From: Paludibacteraceae bacterium
GTDB taxonomy: Bacteria > Bacteroidota > Bacteroidia > Bacteroidales > Paludibacteraceae
DNA length: 10,679 nt
Direction: 5' to 3'
Assembly: GCA_018055865.1 (NCBI GenBank)
Contig: JAGPGR010000043.1
Location: 1-10,679, forward strand
The stretch's first letter is position 1. Each line of letters begins with the position of its first letter. Under the pieces are notes generated by a model, which was not told the DNA's origin, searched no databases, and saw nothing but the letters and a program-made list of their open reading frames with translations. Positions 5,358 to 10,423 of this stretch are shown in pieces. The position numbers and the translations under genes are program-made.

Positions 5358-6641
5358 TTATACGAGTGAAAATTCTTTTTTGATTTCGTGAACCATATCT
5401 GTTTTTTCCCAGGTGAAAAGTTCTACTGTTTTCTTAAATTCTTTTCCGGAGGCATCAATAAATGTTTTTTCTTTTTTCACCGGAGTGCGGCCAACATGAC
5501 CATAAGAAGCAGTTTCTTCGTATATCGGATTACGCAGTTTCAGCCTTTTTTCTATTGCTTTGGGACGCATATCAAACAGAACGGCTATTTTTTCGGCTAT
5601 TTGTTCATCAGTAAGATTTACCTTTGATTTCCCGTAAGTGTTAACATATATATTCATTGGATTGGCTAATCCAATTGCATAAGCCACCTGTACAAGTACT
5701 TCTTCAGTAACGCCGGCTGCTACTAAGTTTTTGGCAATGTGACGGGCTGCATACGCTGCCGAGCGATCCACTTTCGAAGGATCTTTGCCCGAAAAAGCTC
5801 CGCCGCCGTGTGCTCCTTTTCCCCCGTAGGTATCTACAATAATTTTTCGCCCGGTCAATCCGGTATCACCGTGAGGACCGCCAATCACAAATTTACCTGT
5901 CGGATTAACGTGCAGTACAAATTCATCCTGAATAAGTTGAGCAAATTGGGGAACTTTGGCTTTTACGCGCGGAATGAGGATGTTTCGTACATCTTCTTTG
6001 ATAATCGATAGCATCTCATTATCAGCTCTTTCCTGTCCTCTTTCGTCGCTCGGATGTATAAAATCATCGTGCTGAGTAGATATAACAATGGTATGAACCC
6101 GCTTTGGTTTGTTATCATCATCATATTCTATCGTAATCTGCGACTTGGAATCAGGGCGAAGATACGTCATCACTTTGCCTTCGCGGCGAATTACCGCCAG
6201 TTCTTTTACCAGTGCATGCGACAAATCAAGCGATAAGGGCAGATAGTTTACAGTTTCGTTACAGGCATACCCGAACATCATGCCCTGATCGCCGGCGCCC
6301 TGATCCATCGGTTCATCGCGTTCCACACCTCGGTTGATGTCCCTGGATTGCTCGTGCAAAGCGGAGAAAATGCCGCACGAATTACCGTCGAACATGTATT
6401 CGCTCTTTGTGTATCCTATTCGGTTGATTACACCGCGTGCAATGGTTTGCACGTCAACATAGGCTTGCGAGCGCACTTCACCGGCAAGCACCACCTGTCC
6501 GGTAGTAACGAGCGTTTCGCAGGCTACTTTTGAGCTGGCATCCTGAGCCAGAAAATTGTCGAGAATGGCGTCTGAAATTTGATCGGCCACTTTGTCGGGG
6601 TGTCCTTCTGACACCGATTCGGAAGAAAATAAATAACCCAT
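5358..6641 (-). CDS. metK: S-adenosylmethionine synthetase (methionine adenosyltransferase)
   Basis: The 427-residue cytoplasmic enzyme makes SAM from methionine and ATP. Visible family signatures are [11 protein letters not shown] (residues 11-21, with H14 and D16 for ATP/Mg), [12 protein letters not shown] (115-126), the phosphate-loop region [13 protein letters not shown] (254-266), and [19 protein letters not shown] (279-297). The length suits the long Bacteroidota form. The ATG at 6641 gives the standard MGYLFSSES start; an in-frame ATG at 6683 would add 14 residues of leader sequence. A SAM-II-type riboswitch lies in the leader (6743-6823), so the gene is probably repressed by its own product, which is strong independent support for both calls. 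A terminator follows the stop, so metK appears to be transcribed alone. Confidence 0.97.
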
Positions 6642-6742
6642 AATATTAATGCATTTTTTAATACTGATAAGTGGTAAATGCAATTTCTCAAATTACAAAT
6701 TCACGTATCAATTGATTTATAAATATTTAGGGAAAGAAAAAA

Positions 6743-6823
6743 GGACTGTAGTAGAAAAAAACGGAAAGTTAGTTACAATTTAGCATTTTTTTTCGTGGTT
6801 GCAAGCAGTCCAAATCTATCCAC
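6743..6823 (-). ncRNA. SAM-II-type riboswitch, long-loop form, in the metK leader
   Basis: Read on the - strand: P1 is GUGG (6823-6820) with CCAC (6798-6795). The loop between them holds AGAUUUGGACUG and CUUGCAA. An A-rich stretch of eight A (6793-6786) then leads to UGCUAAA. The pseudoknot core UUGC (6804-6801) pairs with GC-U-AA (6784-6780), leaving the bulged U typical of SAM-II. GGACUG (6811-6806) pairs perfectly with CAGUCC (6748-6743), separated from GCUAA by a 31-nt insertion. The conserved pieces GAUUU, CUUGCA, P1 3' strand, A-rich linker and GCUAA occur in the SAM-II order and spacing. A long-loop SAM-II variant is known as a separate RNA family. The position before metK fits. Folding and SAM binding are not shown by sequence alone. 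Confidence 0.75.
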
Positions 6824-6841
6824 TTTTTTTTCGGGTGCAAA
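6811..6841 (-). promoter_or_regulatory. Consensus promoter-like pair inside the metK leader
   Basis: On the - strand TTTG (6841-6838), a 19-nt spacer and TAGATTTG (6818-6811) match the Bacteroidota promoter exactly. The -7 element coincides with the conserved AGAUUUG of the SAM-II motif, so the match may be chance. If it is real, its transcript would begin within the riboswitch and lack P1. Confidence 0.35.
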
Positions 6842-6845
6842 GATA
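6838..6845 (-). promoter_or_regulatory. Likely -7 element for the riboswitch-metK transcript
   Basis: TATCTTTG on the - strand matches TAnnTTTG. Initiation a few bases downstream would start the RNA about 10 nt before riboswitch stem P1, a compact and sensible leader. No clear TTTG is seen at the -33 position; the sequence there is T-rich. Confidence 0.45.
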
Positions 6846-6934
6846 AAACAAGTATTTTGAAAAAACACAGAAACGACTGTTAATTCATCGAAAAAAATAA
6901 TTTTTCAGACCTTCATCCTTTTTTTTGAAAGAAG

Positions 6935-7537
6935 TTATAAATCCGCTTTCAGGGCAGAAATAATATCCATTTCCATGTCAGCCGGTTTCACTTTCGATTC
7001 GTATCTCTTAACAGGATTTCCGTCTTTTCCAATCAGAAATTTGGTAAAATTCCACTTGATATTGTCGGCTTCGGTACCCGGAACGTTGCTTTTCAGGTAC
7101 GTGTAAATAGGATGAGTATCTGAACCATTTACATCTATTTTTTCAAACATCGGAAAAGTCACACCATAATTAGCCTGACAAAATGCCAGAATATCTTCGT
7201 TGCTTCCCGGGTCCTGATTCGCGAACTGATTGCTCGGAAAACCGAGAATGACCAGACCGTCATTTTTGTACTTCTCATACAGCTCTTCCAAACCGGCAAA
7301 CTGAGGTGTGTAACCACATTTACTGGCGGTATTAACCACCACTACCACTTTACCTCTGAAATCGCTCATTTTTATTTCCTTGCCTTGCATATTCAAGGCC
7401 GAGAAATCATAAAAATTCTGCGAAACGGCATTAACAGAATTCAGACTGTTATTTTTTTCAGCTTCACCATTTTTTTTAGCGGATGTGCAACCGGTTATTA
7501 TCAAGGTTAGCACTACGATACTGATAATTTTTCTCAT
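6935..7537 (-). CDS. gpx: Glutathione peroxidase-family lipoprotein (probably thioredoxin-dependent, 2-Cys)
   Basis: The 200-residue protein reduces hydroperoxides. It starts with a lipoprotein signal ([17 protein letters not shown]) whose lipobox cysteine is C17, so the mature protein is likely tethered to a membrane in the cell envelope. The thioredoxin-fold domain runs from about 42 to 198. The peroxidatic residue is C74 in [11 protein letters not shown] (cysteine, not selenocysteine), with Q104 (FPSNQF) and W162 (KWNFTKFL) completing the catalytic set. C120 in [11 protein letters not shown] corresponds to the resolving cysteine of yeast-type Gpx3, which points to thioredoxin as reductant; the FPCNQ cysteine of many relatives is serine here. 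The ATG at 7537 gives a clean signal peptide; one at 7564 would add nine residues. No clear terminator is seen after the stop. It is transcribed away from the receptor gene across a long intergenic region. Confidence 0.92.
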
Positions 7538-8008: not shown

Positions 8009-10423
8009 ATGAGAAAGTACCTTCTATTTATATTGCTGATGGTTAGCACAATAACCATTTCGGCACAAAATTTCATTCGTGGTAAAGTAACCGACGAAAG
8101 TAACGTGGCCATTCAGGGAGCCCACGTTACACTTAAACAAATATCTCAATCAGTTAAGACGAACAATCGGGGCGAATTTTCTTTTGAAAATCTGACCGAT
8201 TATGCCTACACACTGCTGATAAAAAGCACCGGATATGAGAATTACGTGCAAAACGTTCAGACCGGTTCGGTAATTACCATCGTGATGACCCATGCTTCCA
8301 TTACACTCGAAGAGGTGAATGTGCTGGCTACGCGTGCCACCGACCGTTCGCCGGTAGCATTTACCAATGTTTCCAAAGATAAAATAGAAGAACGAAATGC
8401 CGGTCAGGATTTGCCATACTTGCTTGCTCTCACTCCCTCGTTTATCACCACGTCGGATGCTGGTACAGGAATAGGTTATACGGGTTTCCGGATTCGCGGC
8501 ACGGATGCCAATCGCACCAATATTACCGTTAACGGAATTCCGCTCAATGATTCGGAATCGCACAGCGTTTTCTTTGTAAATATGCCCGATTTTGCCTCAT
8601 CGCTCCATTCGGTACAGGTGCAGCGGGGCGTAGGAACTTCTACCAACGGTGCTGCTGCTTTCGGAGCCAGCATCAATATGCAGACTGAACTCTTGAATTC
8701 CAACCCTTATGCTGAAACAGGAATTTCTCTTGGTTCGTTTAACACCATGAAAAACAGCGTGATGGCCGGAACCGGATTAATCAATAATTTTGCGGTGGAT
8801 GTGCGGCTTTCCAACATAACTTCGGATGGTTTTATCGACCGCGCCTCAGTGGATATGAAATCGTATTTTGTTTCAGCCGGATATTACGGTGAAAATACGT
8901 TGGTGAAATTCATCACTTTTGGAGGAACGGAAAAAACCTATCAGGCCTGGAACGGAGTAGATATTGAAAATCAGGAACGTACATTCAACGAACTTGGAAT
9001 GTACTTTGACAAAAACGGAAACACAAGATTCTATGATAATCAGACAGATAACTACAATCAAACGCATTACCAGCTTCACTGGACTCAGGAGTTAAATTCA
9101 AAGTTGAATTTGAATACAGCCTTGCACTACACACGTGGATTGGGGTATTACGAAGATTATAAAACAGCCCGAAAATACAAGGAATACGGCTTAGAACCAG
9201 CCATAGTGGATGATATTACGCTTAAAAAGACGGATTTGGTGCGTCAGAAATGGCTTGATAATCATTTTGGCGGGGCAACATTTTCGTTGAACTGGAATGC
9301 GAATAATCTTGCCCTGACTTTCGGTGGTGCTGCTAATAAATATTACGGCGATCATTACGGAAAAGTGCTTTGGGTGCAATATCCGAACCATGCAGAAGTA
9401 GGCCATCAGTACTATTTCAATCAATCGAGCAAAACTGATGCAAACGTTTTTGGAAAAATGAATTACCTGATTGCCAATAAATTATCGGTTTATGCAGACC
9501 TGCAATACCGTTATATCCTGCACGAAATGAACGGCAAGGACGACAAATACGATGATAATAAAGGCGTTATGCGGGATATCACTCAAACTCATGCCTTCCA
9601 TTTCTTCAATCCGAAAGCAGGGTTGAATTACCAACTGGACCGCGCTAACAGCATTTTTGCTTCATTTGCCATTGCCAACCGGGAGCCCAATCGCAACAAC
9701 TACACCGATGCCGGACCCAACTACAGTCCGACAAGTGAACGCTTGTATGACTCAGAACTGGGTTACAGATACTTCTCAGGAAGTTTCAGTATTGGAGCAA
9801 ATCTTTATTACATGAAATACATCAATCAGCTTATCCTGACAGGGAAAATCAGTGAAATAGGCGAACCGCTAACTTCTAACATACCCGACAGTTACCGCAC
9901 GGGGCTGGAATTAATGACCGGTGTAAAGTTATTGGATGGACTACGTTGGGATGGAAATTTGAATCTTAGTCAGAATAAAATCAAAAACTTCACAGAATAT
10001 GTGGATGTGTATGATACTAACTGGAACCGGACTGGAATAAAAGAGAATTTCTTCGGTAGGAGCAACATCTCTTTTTCGCCCAGTATAGTGGCAAACAGCA
10101 CTTTCAGTTATTCATTCAAAGGATTTGAAACTGCTTTTTACTCCACTTACGTTGGCAGGCAATATCTCGACAATACTTCGGATGCATTGCGTTCCATCAA
10201 CGCATATTTCGTAAATAATCTCCGGCTGGGATATTCGTGGAGAATGAATAAAATCAAATCCATTGATTTTAACTTGCTGATAAACAATTTATTCAATTCG
10301 GAATATGAAACAAATGGTTACAATTGGTTCACGTATTATCTGGGTAGCGAAAGAATGAACGAAAAAAGGTATTTCCCGCAAGCAGGCATCAATTTCCTGT
10401 TTTCAACTTCTTTGAAATTGTGA
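8009..10423 (+). CDS. TonB-dependent outer-membrane receptor, probable thiamine transporter
   Basis: The 804-residue protein begins with a signal peptide (MRKYLLFILLMVSTITISAQ, cleavage near 20). Residues 22-95 form a carboxypeptidase-regulatory-like beta domain (RGKVTDE...IQGAHVTL...TNNRGEFSF) common in Bacteroidota receptors. The plug follows at about 110-228, with GFRIRGTDANRTNITVNGIPLND and VQVQRGVGTSTNGAAAFGASINM, then a 22-strand-type barrel rich in aromatic and Asn residues to the end. It should import its ligand across the outer membrane using TonB-ExbBD energy. The ligand is not readable from the protein, but the TPP riboswitch in its leader says thiamine or a derivative; TPP-controlled receptors of this kind are known in Bacteroides. 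It is shorter than SusC proteins and has no SusD partner. In Bacteroides such receptors often precede pnuT, but here a strong terminator follows, so it seems monocistronic. Confidence 0.93.
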   Translation: MRKYLLFILLMVSTITISAQNFIRGKVTDESNVAIQGAHVTLKQISQSVKTNNRGEFSFENLTDYAYTLLIKSTGYENYVQNVQTGSVITIVMTHASITLEEVNVLATRATDRSPVAFTNVSKDKIEERNAGQDLPYLLALTPSFITTSDAGTGIGYTGFRIRGTDANRTNITVNGIPLNDSESHSVFFVNMPDFASSLHSVQVQRGVGTSTNGAAAFGASINMQTELLNSNPYAETGISLGSFNTMKNSVMAGTGLINNFAVDVRLSNITSDGFIDRASVDMKSYFVSAGYYGENTLVKFITFGGTEKTYQAWNGVDIENQERTFNELGMYFDKNGNTRFYDNQTDNYNQTHYQLHWTQELNSKLNLNTALHYTRGLGYYEDYKTARKYKEYGLEPAIVDDITLKKTDLVRQKWLDNHFGGATFSLNWNANNLALTFGGAANKYYGDHYGKVLWVQYPNHAEVGHQYYFNQSSKTDANVFGKMNYLIANKLSVYADLQYRYILHEMNGKDDKYDDNKGVMRDITQTHAFHFFNPKAGLNYQLDRANSIFASFAIANREPNRNNYTDAGPNYSPTSERLYDSELGYRYFSGSFSIGANLYYMKYINQLILTGKISEIGEPLTSNIPDSYRTGLELMTGVKLLDGLRWDGNLNLSQNKIKNFTEYVDVYDTNWNRTGIKENFFGRSNISFSPSIVANSTFSYSFKGFETAFYSTYVGRQYLDNTSDALRSINAYFVNNLRLGYSWRMNKIKSIDFNLLINNLFNSEYETNGYNWFTYYLGSERMNEKRYFPQAGINFLFSTSLKL

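Follow-up and report, generated by a model that had tools for sequence, protein, structure and literature searches.

In the window (the whole 10,679-nucleotide stretch of DNA that was analysed), metK, the gene for S-adenosylmethionine (SAM) synthetase, lies on the minus strand behind a leader (Table 1). Read along that strand, the order is the TATCTTTG box, an aptamer, a 31-base insert, CAGTCC, T6, another 95 bases and the metK ATG. Two overlapping oxidoreductase genes at 373-2671 on the minus strand encode a Fer4_20/pyridine nucleotide-disulphide oxidoreductase and a DHODB iron-sulphur domain protein, a pair that we take to resemble the NfnAB type. On the plus strand, 8009-10423 encodes a TonB-dependent receptor with an N-terminal carboxypeptidase-regulatory-like domain.

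Table 1. Features of the metK leader and gene, with the basis of each assignment.
Feature	Coordinates	Strand	Basis
TATCTTTG, fitting the TAnnTTTG consensus of the Bacteroidota -7 promoter box	6838..6845	-	Letters; consensus from PMC7366714
SAM-II long-loop aptamer	6770..6829	-	RF01726 match, 57.3 bits, gathering score 44
P1 5' strand GUGG	6820..6823	-	Letters and RF01726 match
P2b 5' strand GGACUG, inside the P1 loop	6806..6811	-	Letters; covaries with the distal strand
UUGC, conserved core, 5' side of P2a	6801..6804	-	Letters and RF01726 match
P1 3' strand CCAC	6795..6798	-	Letters and RF01726 match
A-rich linker	6785..6794	-	Letters and RF01726 match; A8 at 6793-6786
GCUAA, conserved core, 3' side of P2a	6780..6784	-	Letters and RF01726 match
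31-base pyrimidine-rich insert between P2a and P2b	6749..6779	-	Letters, leader comparison
P2b 3' strand CAGUCC	6743..6748	-	AGUCC in 8/8 and CAGUCC in 7/8 congeners; covariation across 234 leaders
U6 run directly after P2b	6737..6742	-	Letters; directly after the helix in 2/8 congeners
CUUUCCC, part of the C-rich, G-poor leader stretch	6730..6736	-	CTTTCC in 34/234 leader stretches vs 14.1 in shuffles; C over G skew
metK, S-adenosylmethionine synthetase, from ATG 6641	5358..6641	-	Three S-AdoMet_synt Pfam domains

The leader element is almost certainly a SAM-II long-loop riboswitch, a known class. In the Rfam covariance-model search, RF01726 (SAM-II long loops) scored well above its gathering score, whereas RF00521 (classic SAM-II) gave only 15.2 bits on the leader, under its cut-off of 36; the window held no further Rfam match at the gathering score. 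A reading of this DNA made from the sequence alone (the sequence-only reading) had named the class and proposed these model searches. The core that it described, with P1 GUGG/CCAC, UUGC/GCUAA and the A-rich linker, proved correct in letters and coordinates. SAM-II long loops are listed for Bacteroidetes and marine samples in a table of PMC2864571. The likeness to that class consists in a full-model score above the gathering cut-off, the same gene context (a SAM/methionine gene downstream, here metK with all three AdoMet-synthetase domains in Pfam) and the same phylum, and nothing sets the element apart from it. Compared with the Rfam model, the distal strand of the outer stem P2b lies past the model's end. 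With classic SAM-II (PMC1273637; Sargasso Sea metX), the element shares the H-type pseudoknot, the UUGC and GCUAA core and stem P2.

How widespread is this element among relatives of the window? At E <= 0.001, RF01726 matched all eight genomes of the genus, 127 of 150 genomes from the family, 129 of 198 drawn from the order and 45 of 296 from the phylum; a scan for the SAM-II core in viral contigs found none. The named MetK loci that match best point to Bacteroidales as the order of the window. Loci were read for every one of the 130 further matches from the order search, for 112 of 127 further matches from the family search and for 80 metK loci of named genomes. This gave 321 records (L001-L320 and the window), of which 258 carried the core pattern and 245 a metK start; 234 leaders were analysed once identical leaders and those with starts less than 40 bases after GCTAA had been removed. 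The 63 records without the core pattern comprise 48 from the MetK similarity search and 15 RF01726 matches that the pattern missed. In 210 of the 234 leaders, a TAnnTTTG sequence, the -7 box consensus given for Bacteroidota in PMC7366714, precedes the P1 block by no more than 45 bases, and the transcript should thus begin close to the aptamer.

RF01726 ends before the distal strand, which leaves P2b partly outside the model. Is the pairing of GGACUG with CAGUCC across the 31-nt insertion real? The sequence-only reading had proposed that it closes the pseudoknot, and had suggested looking for covariation in related metK leaders. Each leader was given the (different) loop strand of another leader and the complement was sought downstream, in 100 rounds of swapping. 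The exact complement of a leader's own strand was found 10-60 bases downstream in 49 of the 234 leaders, against a mean of 14.8 and at most 25 with swapped strands, and regions 0-10 and 60-110 gave no excess over swaps in the same set. Allowing one G-U pair, the counts were 78 leaders against 44.7, with swaps reaching at most 57. The first five strand bases found their complement in 70 of 232 leaders (17.1 expected), and when only one leader was counted per strand type the figure was 9.5 against 3.0. As a measure of chance, 1.5% of leaders with a different loop strand carry the exact GGACTG complement 10-60 bases after GCTAA. The loop and distal strands vary together, as GGACU/AGUCC, GGAUA/UAUCC, GAACC/GGUUC, GAUUG/CAAUC and GGAUG/CAUCC; within the genus, AGUCC is kept in all eight leaders and CAGUCC in seven.

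Several counts run against P2b. When one G-U pair is allowed, barely more strand types than expected have a complement, both for the full strand (15 against 13.6) and for its first five bases (22 against 20.0); two leaders whose strand has four bases are excluded from the type-level counts. The pairing register of the GAUUGAUUGC strand type is ambiguous. Most of the 234 leaders lack a full complement, so that the stem is shorter, located elsewhere or absent there. Because of the covariation across the 234 leaders and the conservation within the genus, P2b is nevertheless a real long-range pairing.

Directly after CAGUCC come six U residues, at 6742-6737. Does this run turn the aptamer into a terminator? 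The sequence-only reading had suggested that a helix stabilised by SAM and followed by U6 would resemble an intrinsic terminator, one that has no expression platform apart from the aptamer. The arrangement itself is present in the window, where the stem stands directly before the run, and in the closest congener by MetK (L243; 92.0% amino acid identity), in which an A adds one A-U pair to the helix before U6. A third congener, L245, has the helix, then C, then U4, which makes three of eight with U4 within one base of the helix and two with U6 directly after it; in the other five the helix is not followed by such a run. In L308, a C and a long run of U come after the P2b strand. The GGACUG/CAGUCC duplex alone is worth -8.0 kcal/mol. 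The HMP-PP (thiS) riboswitches also offer an earlier example of a stem shared by aptamer and terminator (PMC6478431), although there the aptamer is described as lying within a classic terminator hairpin, while here one pseudoknot stem adjoins a U run, in two species.

The relatives lend this proposal little support. The U run is not directly after the helix in six of eight congeners, and it is not a feature of the family. A helix of at least 5 bp was found in 145 of the 234 leaders and was followed at once by U4 in seven, compared with 99.0 and 4.5 for swapped strands; the rate per helix is the same for real and swapped strands, so helix and U run are not associated, and stem and run together are not conserved beyond chance. 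U4 within one base of the helix occurred in 13 leaders against 8.9 with swaps. Under a stricter definition of the strand, which missed L243, a run followed the helix in one leader of 78, the window itself, where chance gives 2.9. T6 alone is cheap in these leaders: of 400 positions tested in the eight genus leaders, 16 (4.0%) begin a TTTTTT, as do 90 of 11584 across all leaders. The folds of the 96 bases that end with U6 (z +0.47) and of 228 bases (z -0.18) are no better than those of shuffles. In the 228-base minimum-energy fold, itself at shuffle level, GGACUG and CAGUCC form an ordinary nested stem with P1 open, which suggests that the stem need not depend on SAM. It is quite improbable that P2b and U6 form a SAM-stabilised terminator in the window's species and the congener nearest to it, and a shade more doubtful is the fuller proposal that this platform-free terminator, formed by SAM-bound P2b and U6, was recently derived there from a U-rich leader.

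Ordinary terminators do occur among the relatives. A hairpin with a U-rich tail was found in 21 of the 234 leaders, as against a mean of 2.5 and at most 5 in 20 rounds of shuffling, and 13 leaders had one below -7 kcal/mol, compared with 0.4 in shuffles; several of these leaders come from the same genera. On this count, some relatives probably use ordinary transcription attenuation. Such terminators stand between the aptamer and metK in L141, L146-L148, L157, L158, L260, L263, L138, L144, L145, L104 and L308; in L263 and L138 the terminator hairpin is upstream of the candidate distal P2b strand. A conventional terminator/antiterminator that follows the aptamer as a separate element, an arrangement of many SAM-II switches in proteobacteria (cases are given in PMC1273637 and PMC2258182), could in principle operate in the window too. 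However, the scan for short-loop hairpins found no hairpin-plus-U terminator in any of the eight congeners, the window included, nor a short-loop GC-rich hairpin before the U run, and a pattern scan of 6400-7100 for short-loop hairpins gave no terminator-like site on the minus strand. We regard a separate terminator here as very improbable.

If not transcription termination by a hairpin, what does the switch act on? The tentative choice, at slightly less than even odds, is translation. Ribosome loading is favoured because the phylum is without classical Shine-Dalgarno sites (PMC7366714) and the genus has no conserved intrinsic terminator. According to PMC2258182, translation attenuation is the commoner mode of riboswitches outside the Firmicutes; the same source counts against translation in so far as it describes the SAM-II switches of alpha- and beta-proteobacteria as occurring most often with terminators. 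Direct masking of the start is not the form that such control would take. In classic translational SAM-II switches, as presented in PMC10907184, the ribosome site is in the 3' strand, whereas here that strand is placed behind the 31-base insert and 101 bases separate CAGTCC from ATG 6641, in agreement with the roughly 100 nt of the sequence-only reading. For the 78 leaders that have a full complement, the distance from the end of the distal P2b strand to the ATG has a median of 51 bases and a 5th percentile of 38. Such distances are too great for direct occlusion of the start. In the metA switch of S. meliloti, too, the SAM-II pseudoknot lies a long way from the start codon that is used, and PMC9373788 reports control of translation at a distance; that switch needs a Shine-Dalgarno site (PMC9373788), a signal that the phylum of the window lacks (PMC7366714).

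The composition of the leader bears on this translational reading and on a further alternative, namely that the pseudoknot governs the loading of Rho on a C-rich, G-poor leader. At positions -100 to -40, the C over G skew is 0.227 in 89 metK leaders with the core and -0.020 upstream of 153 other genes of the same loci; in the window, the 45 bases that begin 5 bases after GCTAA include 13 C and 2 G and are 80% pyrimidine. Skew is also present in the 39 metK leaders that lack the core (0.147), and it may thus belong to metK and not to the switch. The literature search returned no paper whose title joins SAM-II to Rho-dependent termination. Rho-dependent attenuation is unlikely on this evidence, and we think that ribosome loading would rank first, Rho second and a terminator made of P2b and U6 third. 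For the output step of Bacteroidota SAM-II switches in general, no paper was found by title or the start of the abstract in a search that most subscription journals lie outside; PMC12121620 uses Bacteroides RNA-seq data, and the term 'SAM-II' is absent from its main text.

Other pairings in the leader might serve as switching partners. An anti-P1 pairing, CUUUCC/GGAAAG, occurs exactly in 18 of 233 leaders (17.3 with swaps) and was rejected; with one G-U pair allowed it is above swaps, at 81 against 56.5 and at most 72. A hairpin that would sequester the core through the complement of GCUAAA was rejected for the window's order (26 of 234 leaders against 30.9 in shuffles). Pairing confined to the ten bases next downstream of GCUAA showed no excess and was likewise rejected. 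For a start-codon hairpin CCC/AUGGG, CCC is present in 93 of 118 leaders with AUGGG and in 49 of 116 others; the lineages are confounded and CCC often occurs without GGG, and the hairpin was not adopted. Neither was a hairpin just before the ATG, which is seen in the genus and, at z < -2, in 44 of 134 long leaders; over the last 70 bases it barely exceeds other genes, with 0.11 of 89 leaders against 0.07 of 150.

Words enriched 8-75 bases after GCTAA, in leaders against shuffles, include TTTCTG (35 against 8.9), TTCTGC (25 against 5.7), TATTAA (51 against 17.4) and CTTTCC (34 against 14.1). In the insert at 6779-6749 on the minus strand, CUUUCC is kept among the congeners (CUAUCC in one) and is followed by a U-rich run; within the genus, both show more conservation than the U run that follows P2b.

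Outside the order, a different arrangement is encountered. A GCUAAAG..CUUUAG[CU] hairpin, which would sequester the aptamer's own core, is found in metK leaders that include L322, L325, L332, L334, L336, L340, L341, L343-L348, L350 and others. Of the 27 out-of-order loci, 25 were used for a test, many of them from close relatives: a complement of GCUAAA within 70 bases was present in 16 of these leaders, against 4.7 and at most 10 in shuffles. This anti-core hairpin looks like a switching partner different from that of the window's order.

Taken as a whole, the explanation that we favour is a SAM-II long-loop OFF switch that would act on ribosome loading, with a probability of about 0.5. The metK mRNA would carry the aptamer at its 5' end, and SAM would bind the P1/P2a core and lock the pseudoknot, with P2b closing across the 31-base insert. 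The locked pseudoknot would render the pyrimidine-rich, G-poor leader less usable for ribosome loading on an AUG some 100 bases away. Abundant SAM would then lead to less synthesis of MetK, a direction that we infer from the class and the gene. The U6 run after P2b would then be a peculiarity of two species rather than the effector.

Hiding a Shine-Dalgarno site is what SAM-II switches are chiefly known for; in a group without such sites, however, the long-loop form frequently precedes metK. The mapped distal strand of P2b names the bases for compensatory mutants. If the P2b-U6 proposal were true, a pseudoknot locked by its ligand would itself be the terminator.
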